The notes under the pieces are model-generated. The model was not told where the DNA came from. It saw only the letters and a list, made by a program, of their open reading frames with translations, and searched no databases. DNA of 64,000 nucleotides from Gigantopelta aegis (taxonomy: Eukaryota; Mollusca; Gastropoda; Neomphalida; Peltospiridae), in assembly GCF_016097555.1 (NCBI RefSeq), contig NW_024533072.1:1-64000 (forward strand). Direction: 5' to 3'. Of the stretch, positions 17,201 to 58,606 are shown piece by piece; the first letter of the stretch is position 1, and every line of letters begins with the position of its first letter. A program made the position numbers and the translations under genes.

Positions 17201-18621
17201 CTGGTCTCCCACATTTGTTACTGTCCTTACAAGTATTGGTATGAATGAGACTGGGCTACAATATAAACAGTTGGTCCTGATTCTCTAGTAAGCAGTACTG
17301 CCACAGTGGGGGATCTCTGCTCTGTCTCTTTGGCAATACGTTTGGGGTCTGTCGCTGCTCTTTCTCTGGCATCTATCTCTCCTGTTCCATGGACCGTCAT
17401 CGCAAGTGTGTTGAGGTCCCATTCATCATTTTTAACATGTCTTACTGATGATCAAACGAAATTCTGAGGGAAGTTGGGTGGGCCAACAATTAGACAGGAA
17501 GACAACAAACTGCCATATGTCCTGCTGGCGGAATTTCCTAGGGACTGTTAGTCTCTCCCTCAGCTGAGATTCTACCAGGTCAAATAAAATGTCTCAGTCC
17601 TTTCAAATTGCTGCGCGATGAAACAGCATCGAGATTGGAGAAAAATATCCATATTGTTTGCTAATAATTTGCTGCTTATTCCCAAACCTTCTCTGAGGTG
17701 TCTACTTGCTTCGTCATAATTCGCAGACATCAGAGTTCAGACCCTGAGATTTGTTCGCAGCAGAATGACGCTCGGAGGACAGAGTTCAAATAATTAAAAA
17801 ACTTACTTTCGACGTTCGAGAGTTCATTATTGCTGTGAATAGCTGAATCAAACAAGTTCCGAAAGGTAAATTCAAATTGGTTGACATCCCCATTGAATTT
17901 CTTCAAGTCTATCATTGGTAACTTAACCTTGGGTCCAGGTGATTGTGAGAGGTTGCGCTCATCTCTGTCTGTCTCAAGAAAGGGTCTATTCTTGTGGTGG
18001 GAGTGGAGTTCCTTCTTCCAACCGCGAGACCACTAAGTGATATTACGGTCACGTAAGATTCGGGTCCGAGAGTCAGCTTGTCTATGTTGATTATGGCCGA
18101 GGGAATCTGTCGCCTGAAGGAGTCCGCCTTGCTCGATTTCGTCTTCTAATTGTCTCGCCAAAATCGCATTCAAAATGTCTTCGTCAAGTTTCTTAAGGAC
18201 TATCCAATTTCTTTGGAGAGAGTTAGGTGTTGTTTGACCCAATTTCGAGGAGTTAGGCTTCACCTGTCTAGTAGCGGGCCTCATATACCTGTGAGATGGT
18301 TTTTGTGACTGATCCCCGGGGACCAGCATGTATCCTCTTTCTTTCGACTAACCGCTTCTGTTTCAGCCATTGTGAATAACAGACTCTAACTTCTCAAGTA
18401 TCCGTTTCGGCTGGACCATGTAATAGAGTTCAACACAAATTAGTTAGAGTTGTTCAGATTAGAAGAACCCTTTTTTTCTTTGAGAGGATTCACACATCAA
18501 CAAATAGATATTCACAAAAGGAATTTTTGGCCAACGTGGTCTCTCTCAAGATCACGTGAATATATATATATTGATTACATGAATAATAATCAGTCACAAT
18601 TGAATATTATAATCTCTTACA
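14240..18621 (-). mobile_element. BEL/Pao LTR retrotransposon fossil
   Basis: Read from 18621 downward: a candidate 5' LTR (18419-18621, TGTAAGAG...TTACA), then a TGG primer-binding site (about 18405-18418). Gag follows, with LKKLDEDILNAIL (about 18180-18230) and KKFNGD...FDSAIHSNNELSNV (about 17815-17905), and a Cys/His knuckle region near 17100-17200. Reverse transcriptase has ALRIVYE and a downstream YVDEFAYGE box (about 15480-16000), and an RNase H side has VQNRLGEIRSL and PDIPSRGS (about 14390-14520). The order and motifs are those of BEL/Pao elements. It is broken, with well over ten breaks, so not recent. It sits inside the first unit of the 18.6-35 kb tandem array. A C run lies at 14743-14760. 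Confidence 0.7.
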
Positions 18622-18949
18622 ATAATTTCTATTCAGTGTACAAGGTATATAAGTTAAAGTTATGACAACAGGTCATTCTGAATGATGGTTACTCAAAGTC
18701 TAGGCTAATTTAATCCCGTGAGTGGAATGCAGGTGTGCTCCAAAAGTATATTTAGTCTAATAACTTTATTGACCTTGTAGAATAACATTATTGTGGTTGT
18801 CATATATAGCATTCATCGCTCATAATATTTATTTATTAGTGGTGTGGCGCTATAATCTTGCAGTGCGCCTAATTGGATATAGGTTGACTCATTTTATTCT
18901 ATATGTGTGATAACTATATATAGATGTACTAGCTGTAGTTTGGAGATAG

Positions 18950-19660
18950 AAGCAGATATGGAACTAGTATGGTGGTGTTCAAAACATCGCAGCCAAGCTT
19001 CAATGGAATGGGTCACAGTATTAATAAATACTCTAAGAGACCAAAATTACCTTTCCTATTGGATGTTGTAAACACTACATGTAATCAACTCATAGTGACT
19101 GATGTTCAATATAGTAATGACGGTTTATCAGATGTTGTTAATGTATTCTTGAATACAAAGTAAGATTGGACAGTTTTTACATCTAAAGCTGTAGTTTATA
19201 GTGGAGATGGATGGAATGTTTTTCGAAGCTCAGGTCAAGTAGGCAATCCAGTTCAAAATTCGTAAAGGAGCTTATAAAACTTCAAATAGAGCTGTCTAAG
19301 TCTTCAGATGAATATGGTATAGAGATAGATAAAGTATCTCTTCAATTTTACTGTTTTTCTGTCAATGTCAATAATCAATGTCCTGAGTCAGCTATAAAAG
19401 TAGATGGGAGGATCAATTACTGGCAGTACAGCTACTACTGATACAGCAACTACTGGTAGCACACCTACTACTGGTGGCACAGAGAGTGATAAACCTGACA
19501 CAGAAGGCCTTACTTTAACAGATAGATTTTCAATAGCAGGCAACTATTGGAGGTTTGTGGGTGTTTGCTGTAGCAATTGCTGGTGTTTTGTTACGGTATG
19601 GTTTGGTACTTAAAATGCTATATCAAGAAACGAAGACAGTTAATAAAACATGTGTGATTA
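18950..19660 (+). CDS. YSNDG-domain membrane protein, array copy 1
   Basis: The product is a small cell-surface protein of unknown function. The frame gives NTTCNQLIVTDVQYSNDG (19070-19125), DGWNVFRSSGQVGNPVQ (19205-19258), SSDEYGIEIDKVSLQF (19295-19345), and a Thr/Ser-rich stalk TATTDTATTGSTPTTGGTE (19425-19480). After the stalk come PDTEGLTLTDRF and a C-terminal hydrophobic segment with VAVAIAGVL before a short tail. The domain has the layout of a CBM6/35-like beta-sandwich (AE at the start, YSN in the middle, an EID strand at the end); this is inference. Several small indels break the frame. No clear signal peptide exon was found. The tail looks fused to that of the second lobe seen in units 2 and 3. 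Confidence 0.5.
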
Positions 19661-19734
19661 ATTATAATATCATACCCAAAAAACATGTGGCATATTGTTC
19701 AACATTATTATTTTGTTCTGTGGTTTGTGAGGTT

Positions 19735-19815
19735 AGAATAAATAATTCAATTATATCTTCACATTATATATTTTCAAAAGCATATTAAAAAAACAATTTT
19801 TTGCCATTTGAGAGA
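19735..19815 (-). pseudogene. Decayed ADAL last-exon copy, unit 1
   Basis: On the minus strand this matches the last ADAL exon around 35066-35125 (QMARESFQYAFE in the intact gene) but is mutated and has stops. The same remnant lies at 23975-24035 and 29890-29950, showing that the duplicated unit included the 3' end of ADAL. Confidence 0.6.
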
Positions 19816-19849
19816 GATATTGTTAGTTAGATGGAGCAATTAGTTAGAT

Positions 19850-20820
19850 GGAGGCAATTACTTTTCCAATGTTATTTGGTCAATTTCAACTCCATAATAG
19901 TCTGTGTAAGTACTACAATTTTAATTACGTGAGTTCCATTGGATACTGAAGTCATTTTAACAATAGGTCCAGTTCTTAAAAAAGACATTCCACAGAGTAC
20001 CCCAACGTCTGATTTTGATCTTGTTTGAAACTGTCCAAGAAAAGTTCATTCACAAGAAACGACACACGATCTGAATTACCATCATTGCTGTGACCATTGT
20101 TTTTGATGTGCAACAAAACAGGATTTTCTGTTAATGCTAAATAAGTTTGATTGTTTCTCCACTATGTAGCCATACTGTACTGTCATTTGAATGCAGGCAC
20201 TTCGAAACCTAGAGTACCAGTAAATATTCCATTTTCAGCTCCAAACTAAATGGTATCATAGTAGGATTAAGCAGAGGTTTGGTGTTGAGGTAGGTGTAGG
20301 GTTTGGTGTTGAGGTAGGTGTAGGGTGTGGTGGTTGGGTAGGTGTAACACAATTGTACAGTGCATTTCTAATGTTATTTGTCAATTTCAACTCCATAGTA
20401 GTCTGTGTAATCAGCTACAATATTATTGTATGAGTTCGCAATAGATAATGCTATTATTACCAATAGGTCCAGTACTTAAAAATACGTTCCACAGGTGACC
20501 CAATTAGATTTTGATCTTGTTCGAAATTGTCAAGAAAAAACTCCATTCACTTGATTGACACACGATCTGAATTGCCATCATTACTGTAGACTGCGTTCGT
20601 TATTCATTTCATTGAACAAGGTCTCTTCCGTTGTTAAACTAAGTACGATCGTTTCTCCACTATGTAACATCCACTGTTCTGGTCATTTGATGCAGCACTT
20701 CGGAACATACGAGTACCCGAGGTTGTTCCATATTCTGCTTTTTATCTATTGTCAGTGCACTACAGTTGCAGTGCAGTTGTAGAAATGTCACAAACGACTA
20801 TGAGAGGACAGCTTAAACAT
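19850..20820 (-). CDS. Secreted/surface YSNDG-domain protein, unit 1 (shortened)
   Basis: The minus-strand start (20818-20820) gives MFKLS, then a hydrophobic run like that of the other copies (LSIVVVTFLHLH in unit 3) and a CNCSALT-like cleavage area. Domain 1 (about 20360-20740) has LFNEMNNE, WNVF and a DYYGVEID end. It is followed by a Pro/Thr linker (PTPTSTPN repeats, 20275-20345) and domain 2 (about 19860-20230), which has FRSA and TVWLHS-like residues. The part for domain 3 and the membrane anchor present in units 2 and 3 is lost here. The domains are related to the plus-strand protein of the same array. Several small indels break the frame. Confidence 0.5.
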
Positions 20821-21117
20821 TGTCAAATGCGAGTGGGTCTTGCGACGCGGTTACACGGATTATATAAACGACTAGAAGGCCACACCCATAATCAATATCC
20901 CAACTTCGAATGCTCAACTGGATTTTAGTACGACTTAGACATACTTTTGTCTACAACTACCAAATTATCTAATTGAATATAATACGATAAAACAATTAAC
21001 CTGATATTAGAATAGAAGAAAGAAGTTTTTAAATATTACTCTAATATATCTGAGCAGATTGTGATTAGAAAAAACATAGCTCATTAATAAACTAGTTTTA
21101 ATGCCAGGTAAATACAC

Positions 21118-21215
21118 TAAATATATATATATATATAATGTATGTATGTATGTGTATGTATGTATGTATGCAATGTACATATGTAGGTGTGTATGTGTGT
21201 GTCAGTGTGTGTAAT
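21118..21215. repeat. (AT)n/(GTAT)n microsatellite
   Basis: Runs of TA followed by TATG and GTGT repeats. The counterparts in units 2 and 3 are at 26880-26985 and 32672-32775. Confidence 0.8.
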
Positions 21216-21819
21216 ATATAAATATGACTTTCTATATTTAATCAATATATCCATTGTTAAATGCACACATGGTAACTCTTACATTGTGTTCATATAAGCC
21301 TATGATATATGATATATATTATAAACAATTAGGTTTACTCAATATGAATTATACATATACATTGAGGTTAAAAAATAGAATTCTATTTAAGAGTACAAAG
21401 TACAGAGTTAGGATTATGGAAACAGGTTATAACTGAATAATGTTTAGTCTATATTTCCTGTATAGAGTGTAAATATAGTTAACTCTGTTAACTTTGTAGG
21501 ATACATGTTATTTATTGATTACAATCTGTTTCAAAAAGTCATATAGTTGTTTTAGGTGGTTTGTCATCAAAATTGCTATGTAGAATATGTAATATATATG
21601 TTATTGAATTTCTTATCATGGTTCAACAATTGAACCTTGAATAGAAATTCCATAGTAAGCAAGGTAGATGATAATTCATTTTCCTATGTTAGTGAACCTT
21701 ATTCCATTCTTTTCATAGTATAGAGTTGATGGATAACAAAAACCCAAAAAACTAGCTCATGAATGGTCCCGATTAAACCGTTTATATTAAAAACACTATG
21801 TAAACATTGTGATACTCCC

Positions 21820-21915
21820 TCACCTTCCAATTGGCTAAAAGCGTTCGTACGCTTCTAGACCCTTCTCCTCCGATCAGCTTATCTAAAAGGAGGAGGGGCT
21901 AGCTCACTAGACTAC
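21820..21915. promoter_or_regulatory. Conserved CCAAT plus hairpin block, unit 1
   Basis: CCAATTGGC is followed by AAGCGTTCGTACGCTT and an inverted repeat CTTCTCCTCC...GGAGGAGGGG, then GCTAGCTCAC. The block is kept better than its surroundings in three units (27665-27755, 33450-33540) and lies between divergent YSNDG genes. A shared promoter is inferred. Confidence 0.4.
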
Positions 21916-22549
21916 ATTCTTATAATCTATTTATTCATCTAGTGACTGTGGTTTACAAGCAGCTGCTATAACAAATAGTAGTACAGTCAAAAGTATCAAA
22001 TTATATAATTAATTAATTATAATTAATCATACCATTTTATAATATCATAGAAATTTTATATTATTTCATAGGATACTTGTTCAATATTATATTTTTATTT
22101 TGGTTGTGAGTTTATATTTTTATCAAAGTGGTAATCAACTACCAAACTTTTACTCTGAATACCTTCCATTGCTGTTAAAAATATAATTTCTATTCAAGTG
22201 TACAAGGTATATAGTAAGGTTATGACAAAAGGTCATTTCTGAATGATATTTTCTCAGAAAGACCAGTAGCATCCTACGTCAAACGGAGGAGGGAGGGAGT
22301 AGTTAGTCCCGTGAGTGGAGTACAGGGGTACAATTCCCAAAAGTATGTCAGTGTAATAACTGTCTTGACTTTATAGGACATATGTTAATCTAGTAGTCGC
22401 CACTCTGGCCTTCAGTGCTTTTATAACTTATTTATTTGTAGTGGTGAACAACTACATCTTGCAGTGTGCCTAATGGATTATGAGGTTGACTGTCTTATTC
22501 TATATGTGATAAACTATATGGATGTACTAGCGTAGGTTGGAGATTAGAG

Positions 22550-23250
22550 CAGAACATGGAACTAGTACTGGTGGTGTTGAAAAATATCGCAGCCAAGCTT
22601 CAGGTGGAGTCACAGTATTAATAAATACTCTAAGAGACAAATATACCTTCTCAGTGGAAGTTATAAAACATACATGTATCAATCATTTACAGTGACTGAT
22701 GTTCAATATAGTAATGATGGTTATCAGATGTTGTTAATATATTTTTAAATACAAGTAAGATTGGACAGTTTACATCTATAAGCTGTTAGTTAAATAGTGG
22801 AGAAGGGATGGAATGTTTTTCAAAAGCTCAGGTCAAGTAGGCAATCAGTTCCACTTCATAAAGGAGTTATAAAGCTACAAATACAACTGTCTGAGTCTTC
22901 AGATGAATTTGGTATAGAGATAGATAAAGTATCTCTTCAATTTACTGTTCTTCTGTCAATGTCAATAATTCAAGTCCTGAGTCAGTTATAAATGTAGATG
23001 GAGGATCAATTACTGGCAGTACAGATTACTACTGATACAGCAACTACTGGGTAGCACACCTACTACTGGTGGCAAGACGGTGATAAACCTGATACAGAAG
23101 GCCTTACTTTAACAGAGATATTTGCAAATAGCAGGGAACTATGGGAGTTTAGTGGGTTGTTGCTGTAGCAATTGCTGGTGTTATTACCACTTGTACTTAA
23201 AATGCTTATAGGAAAAAAGTAAAAGAAAGTGATTCAACAAAGATCTTGTT
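22550..23250 (+). CDS. YSNDG-domain membrane protein, unit 2
   Basis: This full-length counterpart of the 18.95-kb gene reads AEHGTSTGGVEKYRSQASGG at 22551-22610, then VTDVQYSNDG (near 22690-22720), GWNVF (near 22810), LQIQLSESSDEFGIEIDKVS (22880-22940), the TTDTATTG stalk (23025-23060), PDTEGLTLT (near 23085), and a C-terminal VAVAIAGV membrane segment with a basic KCYRKK-like tail. It is a probable single-pass surface protein with an outward domain on a Thr-rich, possibly O-glycosylated stalk (inference). Several one-base indels disturb the frame. The YSNDG domain occurs once, against two to three times in the opposite-strand protein. Confidence 0.5.
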
Positions 23251-23569
23251 TTGATCCACAGTATTTACTTGTGGCTATATTTTTTGTTAGACTTAAAGAA
23301 TTAAACTGAATACCATAAAATTTATATCTCAACTTTTTGAAGAATTTAAATTTTATCAAAATTAGTAATAATAATATATTATATGTAAATTGTACTGAGA
23401 TAATTTTCTCAGATTCTTATAGTCAAAGCTTACAATAACTGCCATACCTTTATTTAATATAGACATACGTTTTTAAGTGTCATTCTAAGTATCTTGTTAA
23501 ATAAAATTCGTACAATTGCATGTGATTAACTGTATGAAACAATGCATTTAAACTTTGACTTATAAACTT

Positions 23570-24365
23570 TAGTTTTCGAAGGTCGAGTTAAATAGGTCTC
23601 CAGTTCAAGTACTTCAAGGAACCAATCAACTACAATTATGGCTAAAATTTACAGATGAATATGGTGTTCAGTTAGATAAGATATCTCTACAATTTAATAC
23701 ATATCTCTATGAATGAGATATCTTAAGTCTACTAAAAATTGTGTCTACAAAATTTAGTAATTTCAATGCATTTTGATTTAACTTGTGTGCTTGTAACAGC
23801 CTGCTGGTGTTATTACCGGTTGGTACTTCAAATGCTATAGAAACAAAGACAGTAGTAAACATGTGATTTATTTATAATGTCATACCCAAACATTTGTGGC
23901 ATATTTGGTTAACATTAATATTTTGTTCTGTGGTTTGTGAGTTTTATATTTTAAAAATTAGAATAATAATTCAATTATATCATCACATTATATATTTTCA
24001 AAGGCATATTAAAACAATTTTTTGCCATTTGAGAGAGACATTTGTTAGATGTAGATGGAGTGGAACATGGAACTAGTACTGGAATATTGGCCAATTGGAA
24101 GTCAAAAAACATCACAGCCAAGATGTTCAAATGGGCCACAGTGATAATGAATACTCAAAGAGACAATATTACATTCCAATTGGAAGTTATGAGCACTACA
24201 TGTAATAGGAAAACAACTCTCAGTAACTGATGTTTCAACATTGGAGAAATATTGAGTAATGATGGTTTATTCAGATGTTGTTGTGTCTTTTGAATACAAG
24301 TAAGATGGACTAGTTTACATCTAAACCTGTAGTTAATAGTGGAGATGGATGGAATATAAAGCTCA
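23570..24365 (+). pseudogene. Partial YSNDG gene pieces and ADAL remnant, unit 2
   Basis: The 3' half of a further gene copy lies at 23570-23880: SSQIGNPVQV-like text, FTDEYGVQLDKISLQF, and a GWYFKCYRNKDSSKHV-like tail without a stalk. An ADAL last-exon remnant follows (minus strand, 23975-24035). A 5' half of another copy is at 24050-24365 (EHGTSTG, NTQRDNITFQLEVMSTTC, NSGDGWN). Neither half makes a whole domain gene. Confidence 0.55.
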
Positions 24366-24870
24366 TAAAACATAGTGAAAACAAGTTTCGGTTCTGAATG
24401 ATGTTTAACTCAGAAGACCATAGCATCCAAAATCAAAACAAGGAGGAGGGACTAATTAGTCCCGTGAGTGGAGTACAGGTGTGTGCAATTCTTGCTTATT
24501 CCAAAAGTATGGGTCAGTGTAATAACTATCTTGATTTACCTTTTTATAGTAGTGCCACTATGGGCCTTCACTGTTTTTATAATTTATTTATATTAGTTGT
24601 GAATTGCCTATTTCATCAATATGAGGTTAATTCATTTTGAATTCTATATGTAATAATTATATATGAATGTACTAGTTGTTAAATTGGAGACAGAGCAGAA
24701 CATGTACATGGTTGGTGGCAGCAAGCTTCAAATGGACCCACAGTACTAATAAATCTCTAAGAGCCAAAATTATCTTCCTATTGACTGCCTCAAATTGGTT
24801 CATTCATTTCTAATTACTATTATTAGAACTTGTATAAAAATATAACAAGCTCAATCAAATACTACATCAT
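24366..24870. other. Repeat of upstream region, unit 2
   Basis: 24370-24785 repeats the leader region found before the full gene (gttctgaatgatg, cccgtgagtggagtacaggt) and a short piece of the gene start near 24700-24780, then stops. No gene is supported. Confidence 0.45.
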
Positions 24871-26574
24871 TCTAAAAATATTCCTATGACATGTTCACAT
24901 TAACAAATACATGTATGAGTAAAAAAGACTTAAAAAAGTGTGCAGGCTACAATACAACAAGACTGTCAGAAATAAAATCACAAACATGTAGATAAACAGT
25001 TCTTTTACTACTGCTAGAAGTTGGAGGTGACTAGATTTGAAGTCAGTAGTTGAACTATAAGATAGATACAAAAGTTGGAGGTGATCTATAGTTAAACTCG
25101 ACGATATTTGTGCAGTTACTTTCCAAACGTTATTGTATCGATTTCATACACTCCATAAAAGTCAGTGTAGTTGGCTATAATTTTCATAACGTAGATTCCA
25201 GTAGATAAAAGTGTTTATATTACCAATTGTTCCAGTACTTATAAAAGTGTTCCACAGGTGACCATAATTTGATTTAGTCTTCTTGTTTTAAAACATCCAA
25301 AAGAAATTCTATCAAATAGAACACACACATGATCAATATTACCATCATTGCTATAGACAATGTTCTTGATTTGTATTAAACAGAACATTTCTGTGTGTAA
25401 TATTTAGACGAAATACAATAGTTCTTTGTCATGTAGCCATACTGTTATATAATTGGATGCATTACTTCGATACCTCTGAATACCAGAGGATGTCCCATCT
25501 TCAGCTTCTAGAGATGTCAGCTTTATTTACTAGAGTTTTGAATTATATCGTAAATAGAAAACAACATGGTAGAACTGATATTGAGTAGGTGCCATGTATT
25601 TGCAATTACTTCCAATGTTATTGGTCAATTTCAACTCATAATAGTCTGTGTAAGTAGCTACAATTTTAATTTACGTGAGTTCCATTGGATACTGACAGTC
25701 ATTTACCAATTGGTCCAGTTCTTAAAAAGACATTCCACAGGGTACCCCAGTCTGATTTTGATCTTGTTTGAAACTGTCCAAGAAAAGTTCATCCACAAGA
25801 ACTGAAACACGATCTGAATTTACCATCAATTGCTGTAGGACATGTTTTTGATGTGCAAACAAGCAAGATTTTCCCGTTAATGCTAAATTAAGTTGATTGT
25901 TTCTCCACCTATGTAGCCATACTGTACTGTCATTTGATGCAGCACTTCGAAACCTATGAGTACCAGTAAATATTCCATTTTCAGCTTCCAAAACTAAATG
26001 GTATCATAGTTAGGATTAAGCAGGGGGGTTGGTGTTGAGGTAGGTGTAGGGTTTGTGTTGAGGTAGGTGTAGGGTGTGGTGTTGGGGTAGGTGTAACAAT
26101 TGTAACAGTGCATTTCTAATGTTATTTTTGTCAATTTCAACTCCATAGTAGTTCTGTTAATCAGCTACAATCTTATTGTATGAGTTCCAATAGATAATGC
26201 TATGTGTATTACCAAGGTCCAGTTACTTAAAAATACGTTCCACAGGTAGCCCCAATTAGATTTTGATCTTGTTCGAAACTGTCCAAGAAAAACTCCATTC
26301 ACTCTGAGTGAAACACCGATACTGAATTGCCATCAATTACTGTTAGACTGCGTTCGTTATTCGCATTGAATCACAAGTCCTTCGTTGTTAAAACTAAGTA
26401 CGATCGTTTCTCACTAGATGTAACCCACATGTTCGGTCATTTGATGCAGCACTTCGGAACATACGAGTACCCAAGGTTGTTCCATATTCTGTTCTTTATC
26501 TATTTGTCAGTGCACTACAGTTGCAGTGCAGTTGTAGAAATGTCACAACGGACTATGAGAGACAGCTTAAACAT
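24870..26574 (-). CDS. Surface protein with three YSNDG domains, unit 2
   Basis: Read from the ATG at 26572-26574: a signal-peptide-like start, domain 1 (about 26110-26480; SNWGYLWNVF, DYYGVEIDK), and a Pro/Thr linker (26025-26100). Domain 2 (about 25600-25991) has AENGIFTGTHRFRSAASN, VWLH, NSDRVSVLVDELFLDSF and YYGVEIDQITLEV. Domain 3 (about 25100-25520) has RYRSNASNY, IVYSNDGN and TDFYGV. A strong hydrophobic segment IYMFVILFLTVLLYCSL (about 24945-25000) is the likely membrane anchor, giving a type I surface protein of three related domains (inference for topology). Several small indels break the frame. The gene is the opposite-strand paralogue of the one-domain gene. Confidence 0.5.
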
Positions 26575-28030
26575 TGTCAAATGCGAGTGTGTCTTGCGAC
26601 GCGGGTACACGGATTATATAAAACGACTAGAAGGCAACACCCTAATCAATATCCCAACTTCGAATGCTCACTGGATTTTAGTACGACTTAAACATACTAT
26701 ATTGTCTACAACTCCTACCAAATTATACTAATTGAATATAATACGATAAAATAATTTACCTGATATTAGATATGAAGAAAGAAGTTTTTTAAATATTACT
26801 CTAATATATCCAAGCAGATTGTGATTAGAAAAACATAGCTCATTAATAAACTAGTTTTAATGCCAGGTAAATCACTACCCATATATCTATATATATATAT
26901 ATGTATGTAGTATGTGTATGTATGTAGTATGTATGCATGTACAATATGTAGGTGTTGTATGTGTGTGTCAGTGTTGTGTGTGTAATATATGAATATAGTG
27001 ACCTTTCTATACTTAATCAAATATCATTGTTAAATGCACACATGGTAACTCTTACATTGTGTTCATATAAGCATATCTGATATGATATTAGATTATAAAA
27101 CAATTAGGTTTACTCAATATGAATATACATATACATTGAGGTTGAAAATGAAGAATTTCTATTTAAGAGTACAAAGTACAGAGTTAGGATTATGGAAAAC
27201 AGGTTATAACTTTTTTACTGAGGTTTAAGTCTATTTCCTGTACGAGAGTGTAAATATAGTACACATTGTATTAATTTACCTGTGATAGAGGTGTACAAAC
27301 TACTAATGAGTTTAAACTCTGTTTTTTAACTTGTAGGATACATGTTATTATTGATTACAATCTGTTTCAAAAGTCATATAGTTTTTTCAGTTGTTTGTCA
27401 TCAAAATTGCTATGTAGAATATGTATATATATGTTATGTGAATTTCTATTCATGGTCATGGTTCAACATTGACCTAGAGAAAACCCATAGTAAGCAAGTT
27501 GTAGATGATAATATCATTTTCCTATGTTAGTGAAACTATTCCATTCTTTTCATAGTCATAGAGTTGATGGATAACAAAAAAAACCAAAACAAACTAGCTC
27601 ATGCAATGGTCCACGATGTAAACGTTTTATATTATAAACACTATGTAAACATTGTGATACTCCCGCACATTCCAATTGGCTCAAAAGCGTCGTACGCTTC
27701 TAGACCCTTCTCCTCCGATCAGATTATCTAAAAGGAGGAGGGGCTAGCTCAATAGACTTACATTCTTATAATCTATTGATTCATGCTAGTGACTGTGTTT
27801 ACATAGCAGCTGATATTACAAATAGTAGTACAGTCAAAAAGTATAATTATATAATTAATTAAATTATAATTAATCATACATTGGATAATATCATAAGAAC
27901 ATTTATAGTTATTTCATCGACGCCTTGTTCAATATTAATAGTTATTTGGTTTTGTGAGGTTATATTTTTATCAACAGTGGTAAATCAACTACCACACTAT
28001 ATACTCTGAATATTCCAGTGCTTTAAAAAT
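26575..28030. other. Intergenic part of unit 2
   Basis: It matches 20821-22180 of unit 1: microsatellite at 26880-26985, AT-rich tract, and the conserved CCAAT/hairpin block at 27665-27755. No gene is supported. Confidence 0.5.
27665..27755. promoter_or_regulatory. Conserved CCAAT plus hairpin block, unit 2
   Basis: It holds CCAATTGGC, AAGCGTCGTACGCTT, and CTTCTCCTCC paired with GGAGGAGGGG. It is a counterpart of 21820-21915, between the minus-strand gene ending upstream and the plus-strand gene at 28.4 kb. Confidence 0.4.
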
Positions 28031-28399
28031 ATAATTTCTATTCAAGTGGTACAAGGGTTATAGTTAAGGTTATGACAAAAGTCATTCTGGAATGATAGTT
28101 TCTCAGAAGTAAAGTAGCATCCTACGTCAAAGGAGGAGGGAGTAGTTAGGCCCGTTGATGGAGACAGGTGTACAATTCCAAAAAGTATGTCAGTGTAATA
28201 ACTGGTCTTGACTTTATAGGACATATGGTTCAGCGGAGTAGTAGCCACTTATGCGCATCAGTGATTTGATAACTTATTTATTAGTGGTGAAAACTAACTA
28301 CTCTGCAGTGTGCCTAGTTGGAGTATGAGGTTGACTTCGTCTATTCTATCTGTGGAAACTATATATGGGATGTACTAGCTTGTAGGTTGGAGATAGAAG

Positions 28400-29110
28400 C
28401 AGAACATGAACTAGTACTGGTGGGTTGAAAAAATATTGCAGCCAAGCTTCAGTGGGTGGAGGCACGCAGATCATTAATAAAACTCTAAAGACAATATTAC
28501 CTCTCATTGGAAGTTATAAACACTACATGTATCACAACGTACAGTGACTGCATGGTCAATATAGAATGAGGGTTTATCAAGGCTGTTAATATAAAGGGGA
28601 ACAAGTGGTTCTTAAATACAAGTAAGATTGGACAGTTTACTCTAAAGTTGTAGTTAATAGTGGAGAGAGACGGATGGAAATGTTTTTCAAAGCTAGGTCA
28701 AGTAGGCAATCCAGTTCCACTTCCCTAAAGGAGTTATAAGCTACAAATACCAATGTCTGAGTCTTCAGATGAATATGGTATAGAGATAGATAAAAGTATC
28801 TCTTCAATTTACTGTTTCTTGGTTCAATGTCAATAATCAATGTCATGAGTCAGTTATTAAAAGTAAGATGGAGGATCAATTACAAACTGGCCAGTACAGC
28901 TACTTGATACCAGGCACCTATGTAGCACATACCTACTGGTGGTGTCAAAGACGGTGATAAACATGATACAGAAGGCCTTACTCTTTAACAGATATACTTT
29001 GCCAATAGCAGGCACTATTGGAGGTGTAGTTGGGTGTTGCTGTAGCATTGCTGGTTGTTAGTACACTTGGTACGTAAAATGCTATAGGAAAAAGTCAGAA
29101 AGTGATTCAC
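28400..29110 (+). CDS. YSNDG-domain membrane protein, unit 3
   Basis: Same plan as the 22.55-kb gene: a GTSTGG start region, a diverged SNDG segment (near 28545-28575), SKIGQF (near 28625), GDGWxVF, SSDEYGIEID (near 28755-28795), a disturbed Thr stalk (28900-28960), and a C-terminal VAVA-like membrane segment near 29030. This copy has the most indels of the four, so it is either a pseudogene or poorly determined sequence. It is kept here as a gene because the whole plan from domain to membrane segment can be followed. Confidence 0.4.
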
Positions 29111-29449
29111 AAGATCTGTGTTGATCCACAGGATTGTTACTTTGGGCTATAGTTTTTTTAGACTTCAAAGAATTAAACTGAAATACACCATAAAATAGAT
29201 CTCAACTTTTTAGAGATTTAAATTTTATCAAAATTAAGCGAATAATAATGATATTATATGTAAATTGTACTGAGACATTTTCCTCAGATTTCTATAGTCA
29301 AAGCCTTACAATAATGCATACCTTTATTACTATAAACATACGTTTTAAGTTAATGTCATAAGTATCTTGTTAAAATAAAATTGGGGCCCCCCAAAAAAAC
29401 ATTGGCATGTGATTAACTGTATGGAACAATGCAATTAACTTTGGACTTA

Positions 29450-30240
29450 TAACTTTAGTTTTTCGAAGGTCGAGTCAAATAGGTAAATCCAGTTCAAGTA
29501 ACTTCAAGAACCAATCAACTCCAGTAATGGCTAAAATTACAGATGAATATGGTGTTCAGTTAGATAAAGATATCTTACAATTAATACATATCTTCTATGA
29601 ATGAGGCGATATTAAGTCTACTAAAAAATTCAGTGTCCTACAAAAATTTAGGTAAGTTCAATGATTGTGATTTCACTTGTTGCTGTAACAGCTGCTGGTG
29701 TTAATTAAGGTTGGTACTTCAAATGCTATAGGAAAAACCAAAAGACAGTAGTAAAACTGTGGATTTAGGTTATAATGAAGTCATACCAAAACATTTGTGT
29801 GGCTAGTTGTTTAACATTAATAATTTTGTTCTTTGGTTTGTTGAGTTTTATAATCATTTAAAAAATTCAGAATAAATACTTCAATTATAAATCAGCACAT
29901 ATATATTTTCAAAGGCATATAAAAACAATTTTTTGCCATTTGTGAGAGAGAAATTTGTTAGTTAGATGGAGTGGAACATGGAAACTAGTACTGGAAGTGT
30001 TCAAAAAACATCACAGCCAAGCTTCAAATGGGGCCCAGTGGATATGAATACTCAAAGAGGGACATCTTACATCCAATTTGGCAGTTATGAGCACTACTGT
30101 AATCAACTCTCAGTAACTGATGTTCAATATAGTACTTGATGGTTTATCAGAGGTTGTTGTTTCTTCTGAATACAAGTAAGATTGGACAGTTTAATCTAAA
30201 CCTGTAGTTCATAGTGGAGATGGATGGAATACAGCTCAAA
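29450..30240 (+). pseudogene. Partial YSNDG gene pieces and ADAL remnant, unit 3
   Basis: It mirrors 23570-24365: a 3' half with a TDEYGVQLDK segment (about 29530-29580) and a KCYRK-like tail (to about 29790), the ADAL last-exon remnant (minus, 29890-29950), and a 5' half at 29965-30240 with GTSTG and STTCNQLSVTDVQYS-like text. Both halves are incomplete. Confidence 0.5.
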
Positions 30241-30700
30241 AACCTAGTGACAAAAAAGTTCCCGTTTCTGAATGATGTTTACTCATGAAGACCATAGCAT
30301 CCAAAATCAACAACAAGGAGGAGGGGACTAATTATTCCGTGAGTGGAGTTACAGGTGTGCAATTCTTGACTTATTCAAAAGTATGTCCAGTGTAATAACG
30401 GTCTTTCCCTTTTTATAGTAGTAGCCACTATGGGCTTCTACTGTTTTTTATAGAATTTATTTATTTATTAGTTGTGAATGCCTAATTCAATATGGTTAAT
30501 TCCTTTAATTTATATGTAAGCCTTATATATTAGTGTATGAGTTTAAATTAGGAGACAGAGCAGAACCATGTACTGGTGGTTGCAGCCAAGCTTCAATGGA
30601 CCCACATACTAATACCTACTCTAGAGCCAAAATAGACGGCCTAGGAAATTGGTTCATTCATTTCTAATTATATTATTAGAACTGATAAAATTACAACAAT
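30241..30700. other. Repeat of upstream region, unit 3
   Basis: It repeats 24366-24870, again ending in a short gene-start piece near 30560-30620. No gene is supported. Confidence 0.4.
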
Positions 30701-32376
30701 CCAAATTCTACAACATTATATGACATGTAAACATTAAACAAACTACATGTATTGAGGTAAAAAGACTAAAAAAGTGGAGTTGCAGCTAAATAAAGACTGT
30801 CAGAAAGAACAAAAACTGTAGCATACAGTTCTTACTACTGCTAGAAGTTGAGGTGGAACCTAGAATTGAAGTAGTAGTTGAACTATTAAGATAGATACAA
30901 CGTTGGAGGTGATCTATAGTAAACAAATCGACGATTATTTGTGCAGTTTCCTTCAACAGTTATTGTTCGATTTTCAATCCATAAAAGTCCGGTTAAGGGG
31001 TTTTTGGGGGGGGGGGGGGGGGCTTATAATTCATAACGTAGAGCCAGTAGATAAGTGTTTATATTCCAATTGTTCAGTACTTATAAAAAGTGTCCACAGG
31101 GTACCATAATTTGATTTAGATCTGGTTTTTAACACCACCAAAAGAATTCTATCAAATCTAGAACAACACATGATCATATTACATCATTGCATAGACAATG
31201 TTCTTGATTGTTTAAAAAGAACATCTGTTGTTGTAATATTAGGACGAAATACAAATAGTCTCTTTGTCATGTAGCCACATATGTTATATATTGGCTGCAT
31301 TACGTCGATACTCTGAATACGGGATGTCCATCGTCGTCTAGAGATGTTGTCAGCTGTATCTACTAGCGTTTTAATCTATCGTAAATAGAAACAACATGGT
31401 AGAAATGATATTGATGAGGGGCATGTATTTGCAAGTACTTCCTATGTTATTTGGTCAATTTCAAACTACATAATAGTCTGTGGACGTAGCTACAATTTTA
31501 ATTACGTGAGTTCCATGGATACTGAAGTCATTTGACCAATTGGTACAGTTCTTAAAAAAGACATCCAGGGTACAACAGTCTGATTTTGATCTTGTTGGAA
31601 CGTCCCAAGAAAGTTCCCTCCACAAGAACTGAAACCGATTGAAGTCACATCATTGCTGTAGAACATGTTGTTTGATGTGCAACAAGCAAGATTCCGTAAT
31701 GCTAAAATAAGGTTGATTGTTCTCCACTATTAGACATACTGTACTGTCATTGGATGCAGCACTTCGAACATATGAGTACCACAGTAAATATTCAATTTCA
31801 CTTCAAAACTAATGGTATCATAGTAGGATTAAGAAGAGGGTGTGGTGTTGGGGGTAGTAGGTTGGTAGGGTTTGGTGTTGAGGTAGGTGTAGGGGTGTGG
31901 TGTTGGGTGGGTGTAACAAGGTACAGTGCATTTCAATGTTATTTGTCATTCAACTCCATAGTCGTCTGGTAATCGCTACAATCATTGTTAGAGTTAAGAT
32001 AGAAAGCTACTGTGTGATTCCCAATAGGTCAGTACTAAAAATACGTTACACCGAGTTAGCCCCAATTAGAATTTTGATCTGTGCGAAAAGGTCCAAGAAA
32101 AACTACTTCCACTATGTTGAAAACACGACTGAATTGCAATCATACTGTAGAACTGCGTTCGTTATTCGCATTAACAAGGTTCCTTCGTTGGTACACCTAG
32201 TTACGATCGTTTTCTCTATGTAACCACACTGCTCGGGCATTGGATGCAGCACTTCGGAAACATAAGAGTACCCAATGTTGTTCCATATTTGCTTCTTTAT
32301 CTATTGTCAGTGCACTACAGTTGCAGTGCAAGTGTAGAAATGTCACAACGACTATGGAGAGACGCAGCGTAAACAT
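30700..32376 (-). CDS. Surface protein with three YSNDG domains, unit 3
   Basis: The start (ATG at 32374-32376) gives the clearest signal peptide of the family: MFTLRLSIVVVTFLHLHCNC followed by SALTIDKE. Domain 1 follows (to about 31920), then the Pro/Thr linker with GVGV-type decay on the other strand (31835-31920), domain 2 (about 31440-31790) and domain 3 (about 30940-31350). A G run of about 20 bases (31003-31022) interrupts domain 3. The anchor region near 30780-30830 is blurred. Indels are dense. The plan is that of the unit 2 gene. Confidence 0.4.
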
Positions 32377-33838
32377 TGTCAAATGCGAGTGTGTCTTGCG
32401 ACGCGGTACACGGATTATATAAAAACGACTGAAGGCCACACCCATAATCAATATCCCAACTTCGAATGCTCACTGGATTTTAGTACGACTTAAAACATAC
32501 TATGGTGTACAACTACCAAATTATCTAATTGAATATGAATACGATAAAAAACAATTAACTTGATATTAGAATAGAAGAAAGAAGTTTTTTAAATATTACT
32601 CTAATATTATCCAAGTAGATTTGATAAGAAAAACATAGCTCATTAATAAAACTAGTTTTAATGCAGGTAAATACACTTATATATATATTATATATATATG
32701 TATGTATGTATGTGTAGGTATGTATGTATGCATGTACATTGTAGGTGTGTATGTGTGTGTCAGTGTGTGTAATATATAAATATATGACTTTCTATACTTA
32801 ATCAATATAGCATTGTTAAATGCACCCCTGGTAACTTTACATTGTGTTCATATAAGCATAATGATATATGATATATATTGATAAAGAATTAGCGTTTACT
32901 CAATATGAATATACATATACATTTGAGGTTGAAAATAGAAGAATTTCTATTTAGAGTCCAAAGACAGAGTTAGGATTATGAAAAAACAGGTTATAACTGA
33001 ATGATGTTTTTAAGTCTATATTTCCTGTATAGAGGATGTAAATAGGTCCACATGTATTAATTTACTTTTGAAATAAACAAGTACATGTATACAATCTACT
33101 AAGGAGTTAACTCTGTTAACTTTGTAGGATAATGTTATTTATTGATTACAAATCTTTTCAAAAGTCATATAGTTTGTTTTCAGGTGTTTGTCATCAAATT
33201 GCTATGTAGAATATGTATATATTGTTATTAAATTTGTATTCATGCAGGGTTCAACAATTGAACCTGAATAGAAACTCCATAGTAAAGCAAGGTAGTTGAT
33301 GACAATATCATTTTCCTATGTTAGTGAACCTTATTCCATTCTTTTCATAGTATAGAGTTGATGGATAACAAAAACCAAAAAAACTAGCTCATGGGTCCAC
33401 GATTAACAGTTTATCTAAATACTATGTAAAAATTGTGATACTCCCTCACATTGCCAATTGGAATAAGCCTCATACGCTTCTAGATCCTCCTCCTCCCCAT
33501 CAGCTCTATCTCAAAAAGGAGAAGGGGCTAGCTCACTAGAACTACATTCTTATAATGCGTATATAATTGTATTCATCTAGTGGGTGTGGTTTACATAGCA
33601 CTGCTATGACTGATACAAATAGTAGTACAGTCAAACATATCAACTGATTATGAAATAATTAATGATTAATTCATGCATTTTTATAATATCATAAGAAATT
33701 TTATATTTATGTCATAGACTATTTGTTCAATATTAATATTTTATTTTTGTGGTTTGTGAGTTTATATTTTTATCAAATGGTAATCAACTACCAAACTTAT
33801 GCTCTGAATACTTCCATTGCTGTTAAAAATGGCTTAAT
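32377..33838. other. Intergenic part of unit 3
   Basis: It matches 26575-28030, with the microsatellite at 32672-32775 and the conserved block at 33450-33540. No gene is supported. Confidence 0.5.
33450..33540. promoter_or_regulatory. Conserved CCAAT plus hairpin block, unit 3
   Basis: This is the third copy of the block: GCCAATTGG, TCATACGCTTCTAGA, and CTCCTCC paired with an AAGGAGAAGGGG arm that has one change. It lies upstream of the array's last YSNDG gene. Confidence 0.4.
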
Positions 33839-34244
33839 TTCTTTTCAAGTGTACAAGGTATATAGTTAAGGTTATGACGAAAACGGAAGGTCATTTCTGA
33901 ATGATGGTTTCTCAGAAGACCAGTAGTATTCTACGTCAATGGAGGAGGGACTAATAGTCCCGTGAGTGGAGTACAGGTGTACAATTCGGTTGTTTATTCT
34001 AAATTTGGAATAAAAGTATGTCAGTGTAATAACTGTCGAGTTTTACTTTGTAGGACGTATGTTATTCTAGTGAGTAGTCGGGGGGGGCCAATACGGGCTT
34101 TCAGTGCTTTCATAATTTATTGGTTAGTGTGGTGAACACTACATACATCTTGCAGTGAGCCTAACGGGGGATATGAGGTTGAGACTCGTTTTATTCTATA
34201 TGTGATAACGATATATAGATGTACTAGCTGGTAGATGGAGATAG

Positions 34245-34990
34245 AAGCCGAACATGGAACTAGTACTGGTGTGTTCAAAAATATCGCAGTTAAGCTTCAG
34301 GTGGAGTCACAGTATTAATAAATTAACTCTAAGAGACAATATTACCTTCTCATTGGAAGGTTATAAACACTTCATGTAATCAACTCACAGTGACTGATGT
34401 TCAATATGGTAATGATGGTTTATTCAAATGTTGTTAACCGTATTCTGGAATACAAGAAAGATTGGACAGTTTACATCTAAAGCTGTAGTTAATAGTGGAG
34501 ATGGATGGAATGTTTTTCATAGTTCAGGCCAAGTAGGCAATCCAGTTCAAATTAATAAAGGAGTTTATAATCTACAAATACACAACTGTCTGAGTCTTCA
34601 GATGAATATGGGTTAGGGAGAGATGGATAAAGTATCTCTTGCAACTTTTACTGTTCTTCTATCAATGTCAATAATCAATATCCTGAGTCAACTATAAAAG
34701 TAGATGGAGGGTCAATTACTGGCAGTACTGCTACTACTGATTACATCAACTACTGGGTAGGCACACCTACTACGGTGGTGGCCCAGCTATTGATGGTGGC
34801 ACAGAAGATGATACACCTGATGGATATGAATTATAGCAAGGCACTATTGGAGGTTTAGTGGGTATTGCTGCAAGCAATTACTGGTGTTATTCCACTTGGC
34901 TACTTAAAAATGCTATAGGAACCGAAGACAGTAACAAACAACGTGATTTAATTTATAATATCATAGCTAAAAATATTTGTGATGTATTTG
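34245..34990 (+). CDS. YSNDG-domain membrane protein next to ADAL (array end)
   Basis: This is the last and single copy beside the intact ADAL gene, perhaps closest to the founding arrangement. It reads EHGTSTG, TLRDNITFSLE, NQLTVTDVQYGNDG, SKIGQFTSKAVVNSGDGW (34460-34515), NVFHSSGQVGNPVQI (34510-34555), a disturbed DEYGxEID, VDGGSITGSTATTD (34700-34745), a Thr/Gly stalk (to about 34805), a GTIGGLVGIAA-like membrane segment, and a KCYRN tail. Its 3' end converges on ADAL, whose stop lies at 35066. A few indels break the frame. Confidence 0.5.
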
Positions 34991-35065
34991 TGCAACATTA
35001 ACATAACCATTTTTTGTTCTGTGGTTTGTGAGTTATATTTCTAATAATCAAAATACACAATTCAA

Positions 35066-37135
35066 TTATATTATCACATTATATCTTTCAAAAGCATATT
35101 GAAAAGATTCTCTTGCCATTTGACAGAGGTCTCCATCACTTAGACCAAATGCTCAGCAGCAATATGATATTCTTCACTGAGGGAGGTAGCAAATACAACC
35201 TTTATCATCAGTCTAAAGGAACAATGGTAGACCAATAATAAAATATATTAAGGACCTCTCAAAAAATCATAGGCATATCTTAAAGCTTATCATGGTCCAC
35301 TTTCTAACTTCATTTTAGAATATAGCTACTACAATATTTTGCATATCTTTTGTTTCTACTGATGATATTAAAGGTTCACAAAGCATGAACAGGAGAGCCA
35401 GTACCTCATATGATTTCCTACCTATGCATTCCTTGTACAAATATGTGTAAACTTTAAATACTGTACAATTTTTATACGCCATATATGTTGGATAATTAAA
35501 AAGCTAAGTAGTAATTTAATTAAGTATAATTATAGCTGACTCTTTTTAAAATACTAAATGATTCATTAACAGGTTGCAGTCATTATGCTAAAGCCAAACA
35601 AATACTTTTAAAATGGTAAATCCAATTAAGTCATACTAAATGCATGTTCCTATATTGTAGTCTAAACCAGTCCAATATGTACATGAATACTTACACTGAT
35701 GACACATGGATGTCCTTTGTCCCTCCAAAATTTCAATTGATGCTGGTCATAACTTGATACAGTTCTAGCTTTGATATTAGAGGTAAGACAAATCTCTATG
35801 ATGAGAAATAACTACTAGTAACAATGGACAAAATTTAAATGGTTTATATTATCTACTAAACTGACCAATTGGTATTTTATTGTCCAAAACACTTTGTACA
35901 GCTGGTGAAAAGATTCCTTGAGGACCAAGATGAAGGAAAGTAGCCATGACCAATACGATCAGGAGAAAACTGTAAGCACAATTCTGAATCCTCCTCTCGA
36001 TCTGGTCTCTATAAAAAGTGTCTCATGAAATTTTATTAATAGTCTATAATATATACCTCAGGGCAATATGAACTGATAGTTTTAAACCTTGATGTTTAGC
36101 TTCTTCTAGGGACAGAGACAATTTCACGAGTATTACCAGCCTTTAAACACATAACATTATTAATACAAAGAGACTGATATTACCTTAGGATCACCACTTA
36201 AATCAATACCTACTAACTCTCCCTTGGACTCACACATCACTTAATGTACTATAGTTATGAGCTAATTTCAATGTATCATAAGCTTCTGACACTGACTGAC
36301 GACGATCAATAGATAACAGCATCTAGTGGAAAATTAAAATTTAACTGTAGACATGTCTTTGCCATACTTCTGTTAGTCTATCCATTCATTCATACCTAAC
36401 GTCATATCATTAGTACACAGTGGTATGGCCTTTTGTATTCCATTTATAACAGCATCAATATAACTTTGTTTTGTCATTCCTAATATCATACATTATATAA
36501 CAAGATGTTATTAGAAAAAATCAATGTAATACCTGACTCGATATTAGGTCGAGGTGTAGTTCTTAGCTCTAAATACTTTACATTGTCCTCAGCAAATTCC
36601 TTCACTACATCACAAGCAACCTAAATAAAATTATTATCTATTAATATAACTAGTTAATGATAAGGTACATAACTCACTGTAGCAAGTGGCTTCTTCATTG
36701 TCTACTACAGAATGTATTATCGTAAACATTTCAAAAGCACTAAAAGGAAATTAAAGCCGGCTACTTTTCTCAGCTTAAAACTTCAGAAACACATTAGAGT
36801 TGTACATACTGGTATTTTATGTAGGGACTTGTGCATATTTTGACTCTTCCTATCCCCAGTTCTGCATACCAAGTAGGTACAGGAATGTGACTTACCTGTG
36901 TCCAATTGTCGTTGCTCTCCTTTATTGATGACCACTTGCCATATCTCTGGTATTGTGTCTCCTTTACCTTGTAATTTAACTTCTGGACTTCATATCTAAA
37001 GGACAGCCATGTATCAATACTGATAGAGCCATTTAAAGTGGGCATGAAGCTCCTAAGGAGGGAAGTTTAGGTAGTTAATACAATAGTATATTTACCGCTT
37101 TAGACAGACGTCTACAATATTCTAGGTGAAGACAT
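35066..37135 (-). CDS. ADAL: Adenosine deaminase-like protein (N6-methyl-AMP deaminase)
   Basis: The family removes the N6-methylamino group from N6-methyl-AMP to give IMP, using a zinc-dependent TIM barrel in the cytosol. Minus-strand exons by eye: start MSSPRIF (37135); ELHAHLNGSIS with the metal-binding His pair (about 36896-37058); VINKGEQRQLD; AFEMFTIIHSVVDNEE (near 36720); VKEFAEDNVKYLELRTTPRP (36540-36610); GMTKQSYIDAVINGIQKA (36420-36480); DRRQSVSEAYDTLKLAHNY (36260-36310); VGIDLSGDP (near 36205); EEAKHQGLKLSVHI (36065-36115); DRIGHATFLHLGPQGIFSPA (35890-35970, with a frame change); SYDQHQLKFWRDKGHP (35705-35755); TDDKG...EEYHIAAEHFGLSDGDL (35130-35215). It ends SFQYAFERYNVII. One- or two-base indels occur (for example in HAHLNG). 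The last exon overlaps the array's duplicated zone. Confidence 0.85.
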
Positions 37136-49705: not shown

Positions 49706-51507
49706 ATATATATATAGTATGTATGTAATGTAATAACCAATTTTTTTGTTTTCATCTTTTTAATATATTATTGTATGTAACTTATAGGATGCATATAGCA
49801 CCAATAAATTTATTAACTCTAACTACAAGCAGTATGACAATAGGTGTGATGACAATGCTCTTCACTAGCTTGTTTTTATAGCGTAGATTGGGGAAACTTT
49901 TGTGTTGCAAAAAGTTTCATGTAACAATTAACATGTTTAAAACAATTTCGGACACAAGAGGCATGTACGAAAATTGTTAACCTCTAAATTTTAGAAAGTA
50001 TAGCACATTGAGCACTATGAATGAATATGGTAATGATCATTTTATTTGAGGCTATCCTGTATATAATTCTATAAAAGAGAAATGCAGGGCTGCAGTAGCA
50101 TCATGATGACTAGCATATTTGACAATTTTAGCTCGCATGTCTTAACTGTACAGCTGATAAGGTCCACATTTTCTTGACACGCTTTTCATGACCTTCCTAA
50201 CTCCTTCATTGTCTGAGCAATTACTGTGGCTATATGGAGGATAATAGAACCTTTTGAATCATTTGTAAATTTCAAATATCTCAAAAAGAGGCATCTGCCA
50301 TTGTGTAAAAGTGAACTACATACCATAAATATGTGTAATAATATATTATTTATATTAGTGTGTTTAAATTTCATACATTGTTCATTGTTAGAACTTTTTA
50401 TAAACACTGAAACTTTCCAGATCTACTGTATCTCTATCATTCTACAGCTATTAGTCTTCCTCTGATACTGTTACTAAATCTGTAATCTTTATAACTATCT
50501 CTTTATTTTTATAACTATCTCTTAATCTTTATAACTATATATATCTTTATTGTTTTATTGTGAAGTCAGTATCTTCCGAAGTTATAGGATGAATTTTTTA
50601 ATAATAGTTTTGTTATTTTTAGATATTGTAGCTTAATTAATAATAGATAGCAAAAGTTAAATGAATTCTTATTAACTCACCTTGTTACTATAGTAATTAT
50701 CTTCTTTATCAAGATAGATCATTGATATTTTTTTATAGTATAATTACTTTTAATTAAATATTACATTAGGTTTCAAGTTGGGATGTTGAAGAAAGTCGTC
50801 CACAATCATTACATGATGAACTAGCCAGTAGTCCATCAGCTGCTGAAAAACTATATCCAGTATGGTCTACCATACTTCTGAAGCTGTCCCAACTACCCTT
50901 TACTATCGAGATCAAGGAGAAGATAAGGGAATGCCTCGACCTTCATGGATGCTCTCGATCAGGCAATGAACACCACAAATCTAGACAACATTCTGAAGAG
51001 GTTTGTATATTCTAATACAATAGTATATTATAATATATATAACCTGGGGACCATTATACTTAATATTAAGTTGATATGACTATAGTATAATATTGAGTAT
51101 GTATAGTACATGTTATATGTCATTGTTAGGATGCTACTGATGAGGTTGAGGGTGGAGAGGAAATTGAGAGACCAAAATGGTGGCAGCAATGTTGTCATAG
51201 AGATAGGAATAAAGAGAAGAAACCTAAGAAATTAGGATGGATCATGGGTGTACTGGTAAAGTGCATTATAACCTTATTAGATCACACGACATATACTCCC
51301 TCTCTTTATCACAGGTTCGTTGTCTCCTCAATATTTTGGGTGTCATGTTATTTATTAGACTTAGTTGGGTTGTTGGTCAAGCTGGAATTGGACTTGCTTC
51401 AGTTATCATTCTCCTTTCTACTGTAGTTACCATATTAACTACATTATCAATGTCTGCTATTTGTACAAATGGGGAAGTGAAAGGGGGTGGAGCTATTTAT
51501 CTGATAT

Positions 51508-51539
<32 letters not shown>

Positions 51540-58119: not shown

Positions 58120-58587
58120 TTTTCATAAGACATTTATTTTAAGATGTATATTACTCTCTCTAGTTATCTGGTCTTGGTAAGTTACGTCCTAATACTTTAG
58201 TGATTGGTTTTAAGAGTAACTGGAAGACCTCTTCACAAGAAGACATTGAAGAATATGTCAATATATTACAGTAAGTGGGTATATGAAGAATGGAGTGTAT
58301 ATTTCTTGTATAGTGATGCATTTGATCTTCATTTTGGTGTAGTGATCTTTCGTTTAAAAGCTGGTTTTGTTGTCACTAATGATGACCAATACTTACCATC
58401 TCATTCTATTGGTCCTACTCAACCACAAAATGACAATGGAAAGAGTAGAGTGGTTACTGATGAACATACTTCTGATAATTCTCCTCCACTAGAATCAATA
58501 GGAGAACAAAGAGAGAGTATTCAACCATTAATACCTTCATCTTCACCTAATTTAGCTGACTCATAAGAAATTTAGTACATTTATATT
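58120..58587 (+). pseudogene. Duplicated fragment of the SLC12 gene
   Basis: It copies 54032-54500 in the same orientation, including the intron. Text: [20 protein letters not shown], then [20 protein letters not shown] and SLIPSSSPNLADS. The donor gtaaga at the end of the second exon has become ataaga here. No flanking SLC12 exons follow; satellite DNA starts about 20 bases later. It is probably not functional. Confidence 0.85.
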
Positions 58588-58606
58588 CTACCATATTCTG
58601 TTGATA

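Follow-up and report, generated by a model that had tools for sequence, protein, structure and literature searches.

A tandem array of putative stalked surface proteins with a CBM6-like domain on a small contig of the Gigantopelta aegis assembly

Clustered families of variable surface proteins are found at the allorecognition loci of cnidarians. Here we describe a tandem array in the first 64,000 bases (the window) of contig C909 (NW_024533072.1; 105,892 bases in all) of the Gigantopelta aegis assembly GCF_016097555.1, which comprises 1,149,253,464 bases in 5216 contigs. The array carries two related genes, A on the plus strand and B on the minus strand. Like the cnidarian loci and the sponge aggregation factors, it is made up of tandem, diverged genes for surface or matrix proteins, a likeness by analogy. 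Allorecognition in Amphimedon serves as a further comparison case for clustered, variable surface families (PMC5450542).

At the level of the domain, the nearest described counterparts may be the CBM_6/CBM35-like modules. They resemble the domain encoded here in a collinear, full-length but weak match, and in an EAE-like start and an E-x-D end in many of the aligned rows. However, the proteins of the window would be stalked membrane proteins of an animal, whereas CBM_6 modules are attachments of enzymes. We conclude that the array is real and that it represents a tandem family of surface proteins whose members are diverging. The best account of it, which we hold with middling confidence, would be a fast-evolving family of animal extracellular proteins with a CBM6-like (galactose-binding-like) module, in an error-rich rendering on this contig.

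Tandem units with two paralogous genes

An initial annotation, made from the sequence of the stretch, had proposed an amplified cluster of paired surface-protein genes. Self-comparison bears this out, with repeated units of ~5.8 kb between 18.7 and 35.1 kb, and both the coordinates and the unit size of 5.8 kb given there are correct. In a self-BLASTN of the window, 21488-29090 and 27326-34921 form a single alignment of 8037 columns with 82.6% identity, and shorter alignable copies on either side bring its limits to 18710 and 35128. Among the repeat families of the window, many copies are spaced by 5.74-5.88 kb. The unit limits are taken from the alignment ends (self-BLASTN).

18710..35128, no strand: tandem array, unit ~5.8 kb (self-BLASTN and repeat families)
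18710-21487: partial unit 1
21488-27325: unit 2 (full)
27326 to ~33104: unit 3 (full)
~33105-35128: partial unit 4

Beside the left end of the array, at 17733-18032 on the minus strand, lies a match to DUF1759 (E 9.2e-6, 26.2 bits, cut-off 25.4), a family that occurs in BEL/Pao retroelements. Around it, from 14 to 18 kb, the G+C content is raised (0.42-0.43).

The copies of gene A were placed by frameshift-tolerant protein-to-DNA alignment, and the model was read mainly from a cleaner copy on another small contig, C1296. The product of gene A would begin with a signal-peptide-like sequence, followed by one domain of ~135 residues and a Thr-rich stalk, and would end in a hydrophobic stretch and a short basic tail. 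The signal-peptide-like start, a Ser/Thr-rich stretch and the C-terminal hydrophobic stretch are present in four read-through models, as judged by Kyte-Doolittle only. Gene B also opens with a signal-peptide-like sequence, after which come two domains (1 and 2) joined by a Pro/Thr linker, and in the two full units there is a third domain.

18881..19636, plus strand: gene A copy 1, signal peptide, one domain, Thr-rich stalk, hydrophobic anchor; 14 frameshifts, 0 stops
22480..23218, plus strand: gene A copy 2; 18 frameshifts, 0 stops
28325..29100, plus strand: gene A copy 3; 24 frameshifts, 0 stops
34173..34931, plus strand: gene A copy 4; 14 frameshifts, 3 stops
23574..23698, plus strand: type-A domain, second-half piece, unit 2; 20/43 identical, 1 frameshift, 1 stop
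24045..24358, plus strand: type-A domain, first-half piece, unit 2; the sequence after it resembles that ahead of an A gene
29458..29648, plus strand: type-A domain, second-half piece, unit 3; 26/64 identical, 4 frameshifts
29974..30268, plus strand: type-A domain, first-half piece, unit 3; alignment past 30268 doubtful
20820-19864, minus strand: gene B copy 1, signal peptide, domain 1, Pro/Thr linker, domain 2; 22 frameshifts, 2 stops
26574-25610, minus strand: gene B copy 2, signal peptide, domains 1 and 2; 30 frameshifts, 1 stop
32364-31445, minus strand: gene B copy 3, signal peptide, domains 1 and 2; 31 frameshifts, 0 stops
25508-25073, minus strand: third B domain, unit 2; 3 frameshifts, 1 stop
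31310-30940, minus strand: third B domain, unit 3; 7 frameshifts, 3 stops

The annotated layout of gene A (one domain, Thr stalk, anchor) thus recurs in four copies, but each copy is interrupted by frameshifts, and units 2 and 3 contain half-pieces in addition. For gene B, the signal peptide and two to three domains are confirmed. The annotated anchor could not be read in the window, where the C-terminal end of the B copies is unreadable. Of the B copies on C1296, one has a hydrophobic tail at its end, without a cytoplasmic part, and another has a helix and a charged tail (both by Kyte-Doolittle only), which suggests an anchor for B.

The half-domain pieces of units 2 and 3 form the pattern that unequal exchange would leave, because the first-half pieces continue into sequence of the kind that precedes an A gene elsewhere. 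Downstream of the unit-2 piece, 24392-24777 aligns with 22237-22650, and downstream of the unit-3 piece, 30265-30478 aligns with 22236-22448 (self-BLASTN). Unequal exchange between repeats would both multiply the copies and leave truncated pieces behind.

The motifs YSNDG, WNVF and G-EID, which had been taken as common marks of A and B, can all be located in a single alignment of 15 copies of the domain, in which five columns are invariant. In a tree of 26 domain rows, the A domains form one clade (12 rows, support 95/99), as do the B domains (11 rows, 98/98). Within B, the domain 1 copies of different units cluster together with two C1296 copies (five rows, 89/88), the domain 2 copies of three units with one another (100/99), and the domain 3 copies of two units likewise (99/96). 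The tree is rooted at the midpoint for drawing only, 12 of its 23 inner branches are open, and its three chromosomal rows are long branches. Not among its rows are the window's truncated A pieces, the C1296 A copies that are truncated (9.6, 11.4 and 30.8 kb), two pieces on the small contig C3540, and a fourth chromosomal match (L044). Since A and B form supported clades, and since the B domain positions group across units, A, B and the multi-domain form of B are, on this tree, older than the amplification of the unit. The proposal that A and B are paralogues that split before amplification is thereby upheld.

The opposite strands of A and B hold for this unit. The annotation had gone further and stated that the genes must have been inverted before amplification, and this necessity falls away, as A and B also occur in the same direction on C1296. 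There, B at 7183 and 10034 and A at 9613 and 11446 are all on the plus strand, and B at 29510 and A at 30834 and 31626 are all on the minus strand. Opposite orientation is therefore a trait of this unit and not of the family, and because the orientation varies on C1296, inversion before amplification is only one reading of the order of events. Between A genes of C1296, at 16042-16326 on the plus strand, there is an integrase-core-like fragment of a retroelement (rve E 2.9e-5, below cut-off).

When the assembly was searched at the protein level, 33 matches were listed at E up to 1, some of which are halves of one domain: nine on C909, 17 on C1296, three on C3540, one on C7 and three on C8. Several copies thus also lie on the cleaner C1296, so that the family is not single-copy there. 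The four matches on the chromosome-size contigs C7 and C8 are 30-36% identical to the domain. Three (L032, L035, L037) lie in open frames of 277-299 codons, and the fourth (E 0.006) contains a stop. The three proteins share with the window family the domain and a signal-peptide-like start and have intact frames; they differ in being single-domain secreted proteins that are dispersed, in no such array as far as seen, on contigs of different composition. No prokaryotic relatives (one query, 107 pattern matches) and no viral relatives (two queries, five and four pattern matches) were confirmed in a scan that finds close relatives only.

It could be argued that the units are an assembly artefact, in which reads of one locus or of two haplotypes were strung together. 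The region is uncorrected and the contig is small, as would be expected in that case. However, even when only bases more than three positions away from any gap are counted, the units differ from each other by 3.7-8.6%, unit 1 is laid out differently from the others in lacking the middle part of the unit (self-BLASTN), and C1296 and C3540 hold further, more diverged copies. We therefore regard an artefact as very unlikely.

Sequence error and decay

In view of the many frameshifts, it is natural to ask whether the genes of the window are genes at all. Most copies on this contig could be pseudogenes left by repeated unequal exchange, with the functional genes elsewhere in the genome. In agreement with such a decayed array, all A and B copies of the window are frameshifted, A copy 4 has three stops, and truncated pieces are present. 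The distribution of gaps nevertheless speaks against decay as the main cause. Gap runs between units number 5.7, 6.8, 7.8 and 8.0 per 100 aligned bases in four comparisons, and single-base runs account for 74/90, 87/106, 99/122 and 439/573 of them. Two comparisons restricted to A genes yield 5.8 and 9.1 gap runs per 100, with 10.7% and 6.6% mismatches, so that the density in the mostly non-coding 8-kb alignment (8.0 per 100) is about that in the A genes. Two repeat pairs in the first 13 kb have 3.0 and 7.6 gap runs per 100.

A duplication in the right part of the window behaves differently. The tandem-duplicated piece at 54033-54517 and 58120-58604 (plus strand; 92% identical; weak SLC12 match, E 0.0063) has 7.2% mismatches but only two gaps in 486 columns (0.4 per 100). 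As gap runs are dense between the units and nearly absent from this similarly diverged duplication, we take the left part of the window most probably to be raw, uncorrected reads, which would say little about the intactness of its genes. For the same reasons, the dense gap runs in mostly non-coding alignment and their near-absence at 54/58 kb, we rank a pseudogene array second and consider it rather unlikely.

The copies on C1296 allow a cleaner view. Its seven longer A copies have, in positional order, 4, 2, 1, 2, 5, 7 and 11 frameshifts, and the B copies at 7, 10 and 29 kb have 1, 10 and 2. Over the domain, dN/dS (Nei-Gojobori) lies between 0.24 and 0.84 in 21/21 pairs of C1296 A copies, again in disagreement with a decayed array. 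With the window copies included, it exceeds one in two of all 55 pairs (1.01 and 1.32), both of which involve the 22-kb copy of the window. The table covers 11 A copies, without the pieces omitted from the tree, C3540 and all B copies, and its pairs share branches and hence are not independent. The ratios below one point, weakly, to coding-type constraint on the C1296 A copies, and there is no evidence of positive selection.

Some real decay of copies is possible, and this counts against the preferred reading as a family in error-rich rendering. The 47-kb A copy of C1296 has four stops in addition to its 11 frameshifts, the 10-kb B copy of that contig has one stop, and two of its close A copies, at ~13301 and ~31393, share an extra base at the same residue, beside a run of A. 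This extra base is either a shared mutation or a repeated homopolymer error. Together with the stops in A copy 4 of the window and in the 47-kb copy, it is the reason why we allow for decay.

The nature of the domain

The profile search that had been suggested for the YSNDG domain returned a full-length match to CBM_6 (PF03422), but none above the curated Pfam cut-off of 28.9 bits for the natural copies. One of the four read-through proteins, the 39-kb copy of C1296, matches (E 0.0088, 16.8 bits), over positions 1-123 of the 125 in the profile and hence over the whole module. At E up to 1, seven of the 15 members of the alignment match, the best with 7.2e-4. A mechanical consensus of the 15 rows matches over the same profile positions, 1-123 of 125 (E 2.9e-4), and a consensus of the 12 small-contig rows gives E 3.7e-4; the reversed 15-row consensus and two shuffles, used as controls, gave no CBM_6 match. 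A hand-composed, and hence biased, consensus reaches 30.1 bits, above the cut-off, and a second hand-made one only E 0.037. In CBM6 modules, acidic residues at both ends hold a structural calcium ion. In the family, EAE is found at the start of the domain in nine of the 14 rows that cover it, and the last Asp is invariant in all 15. In a profile search of the PDB, a carbohydrate binding module ranks first (E 0.014). An example of the CBM35-like modules is 2w3j. Because the CBM_6 match is collinear and the weak hits agree, we use the label CBM6-like for a domain that, below threshold, looks like a CBM6-type module.

Several observations weigh against this assignment. All natural members stay below the CBM_6 cut-off, and so do the two mechanical consensuses (21.6 and 21.2 vs 28.9 bits). 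Consensuses of the A rows alone, the B rows alone and the three chromosomal rows gave no CBM_6 match. The first rank in the PDB search is not significant, and the hand-made consensus finds beta-agarase modules in the PDB (E 0.69 and 0.75) level with antibody fragments. The last Asp of the 15-row alignment is preceded by an invariant Glu, where typical CBM6 modules have Asn. Finally, one chromosomal relative has no C-terminal anchor, as judged by Kyte-Doolittle.

These findings bear on another explanation, according to which the stalked modules are structural or matrix proteins that serve adhesion or matrix assembly through protein contacts and do not bind glycans. The failure of all natural members to reach the CBM_6 cut-off and the Glu before the last Asp, which is unusual for a sugar-binding CBM6 site, are in its favour, and the present results fit it and glycan binding alike. 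We consider the explanation unlikely, though worth keeping in mind.

Other searches were less informative. A PDB search with one read-through protein gave three matches (best E 1.8), none related, and NCBIfam gave five families, each matching one of the 15 members (best E 0.014). The module is thus left unassigned at the cut-off by the Pfam and NCBIfam libraries searched. Mid2, Adeno_E3_CR2 and MGC-24 were rejected as below cut-off and wholly or mostly in stalk and anchor, and DUF1390 as a probable chance match of 36 residues, also below cut-off. Rfam gave no matches at the gathering threshold (window, L009-L013 and L015), and ARAGORN found no genes in the window. In the literature searched, no description of the domain family was recognised, which does not show that there is none in print.

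Provenance of the contig and possible roles

The contig itself may be out of place in its assembly. The window, the rest of C909, C1296, C3540 and C3580 have a G+C content of 0.32-0.34 and CpG observed/expected ratios of 0.27-0.38, and the ratio is 0.19-0.32 in four other small contigs. In six pieces of chromosome-size contigs, it is 0.87-1.03 in five and 0.33 in one (C4); this sample is small and not random, as four of the six were fetched because they match the domain. In 4-kb bins of the window, the ratio is 0.34-0.69 to the left of 36 kb and 0.15-0.33 to the right, and this drop lies about where error-rich sequence gives way to cleaner sequence. A 1.5-kb piece of the array, the only one searched as DNA, matches chromosome-size contigs in its microsatellite part only, and for a 1.2-kb piece at 53.9 kb only C909 matches. 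The window contains an SLC12-type transporter exon at 51330-51509 (plus strand; AA_permease E 7.9e-11; with a run of G), which has a counterpart of 82% identity in a 363-codon open frame on C2. The composition and the matches suggest that a second organism may be the source of the small contigs. The origin from a sponge that the initial annotation assumed is plausible. Two published sponge assemblies, however, measure 169.4 and 217.17 Mb (the latter in PMC12639293), much less than the 1.15 Gb of the present one.

Ankyrin-repeat genes recur along C909, at 56371-57850 of the window (plus strand), 68328-71690 (L050) and 89208-95282 (L052, L053). The window frame, 56666-57850, matches Ank_2 with E 3.7e-33, and the frame at 68328 has a weak match to CARD_2 (E 0.002, below cut-off), followed by ankyrin repeats recognised by eye. 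Amphimedon has a large expansion of Death-like and TRADD-N proteins, commonly with ankyrin repeats, which the C909 architecture resembles, and such expansions are reported in other marine groups too, including molluscs and cnidarians (PMC8195603). Elsewhere in the window, 3181-3935 can be aligned with itself in inverted orientation (82.5% identity in 800 columns), with related pieces in the rest of the first 13 kb, and 58621-61896 is a satellite-like tandem array with a period of ~91 bases (also 183 and 274) in ~36 copies.

As for function, type A would carry one module on a Thr/Ser-rich stalk, anchored by one membrane helix that is followed by a short basic tail, and type B two or three modules with a Pro/Thr linker, probably ending in a hydrophobic anchor. 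Most likely, the proteins would bind glycans or glycoproteins on the surface of the cell, A monovalently and B multivalently, which would fit this anatomy (secreted, stalked, anchored, one to three modules). A and B could even be a linked recognition pair, a monovalent membrane receptor and its multivalent partner of the same module family, placed in a single convergent unit and co-amplified so that matched variants travel together. We regard this as highly improbable; if true, it would be as expected of a locus for self/non-self recognition in a sessile animal. The example also shows that a gene family can go unnoticed on an unpolished contig because of apparent frameshifts. Expression and polymorphism of the copies, if present, would make this a candidate locus for recognition at the surface of a sessile animal's cells.

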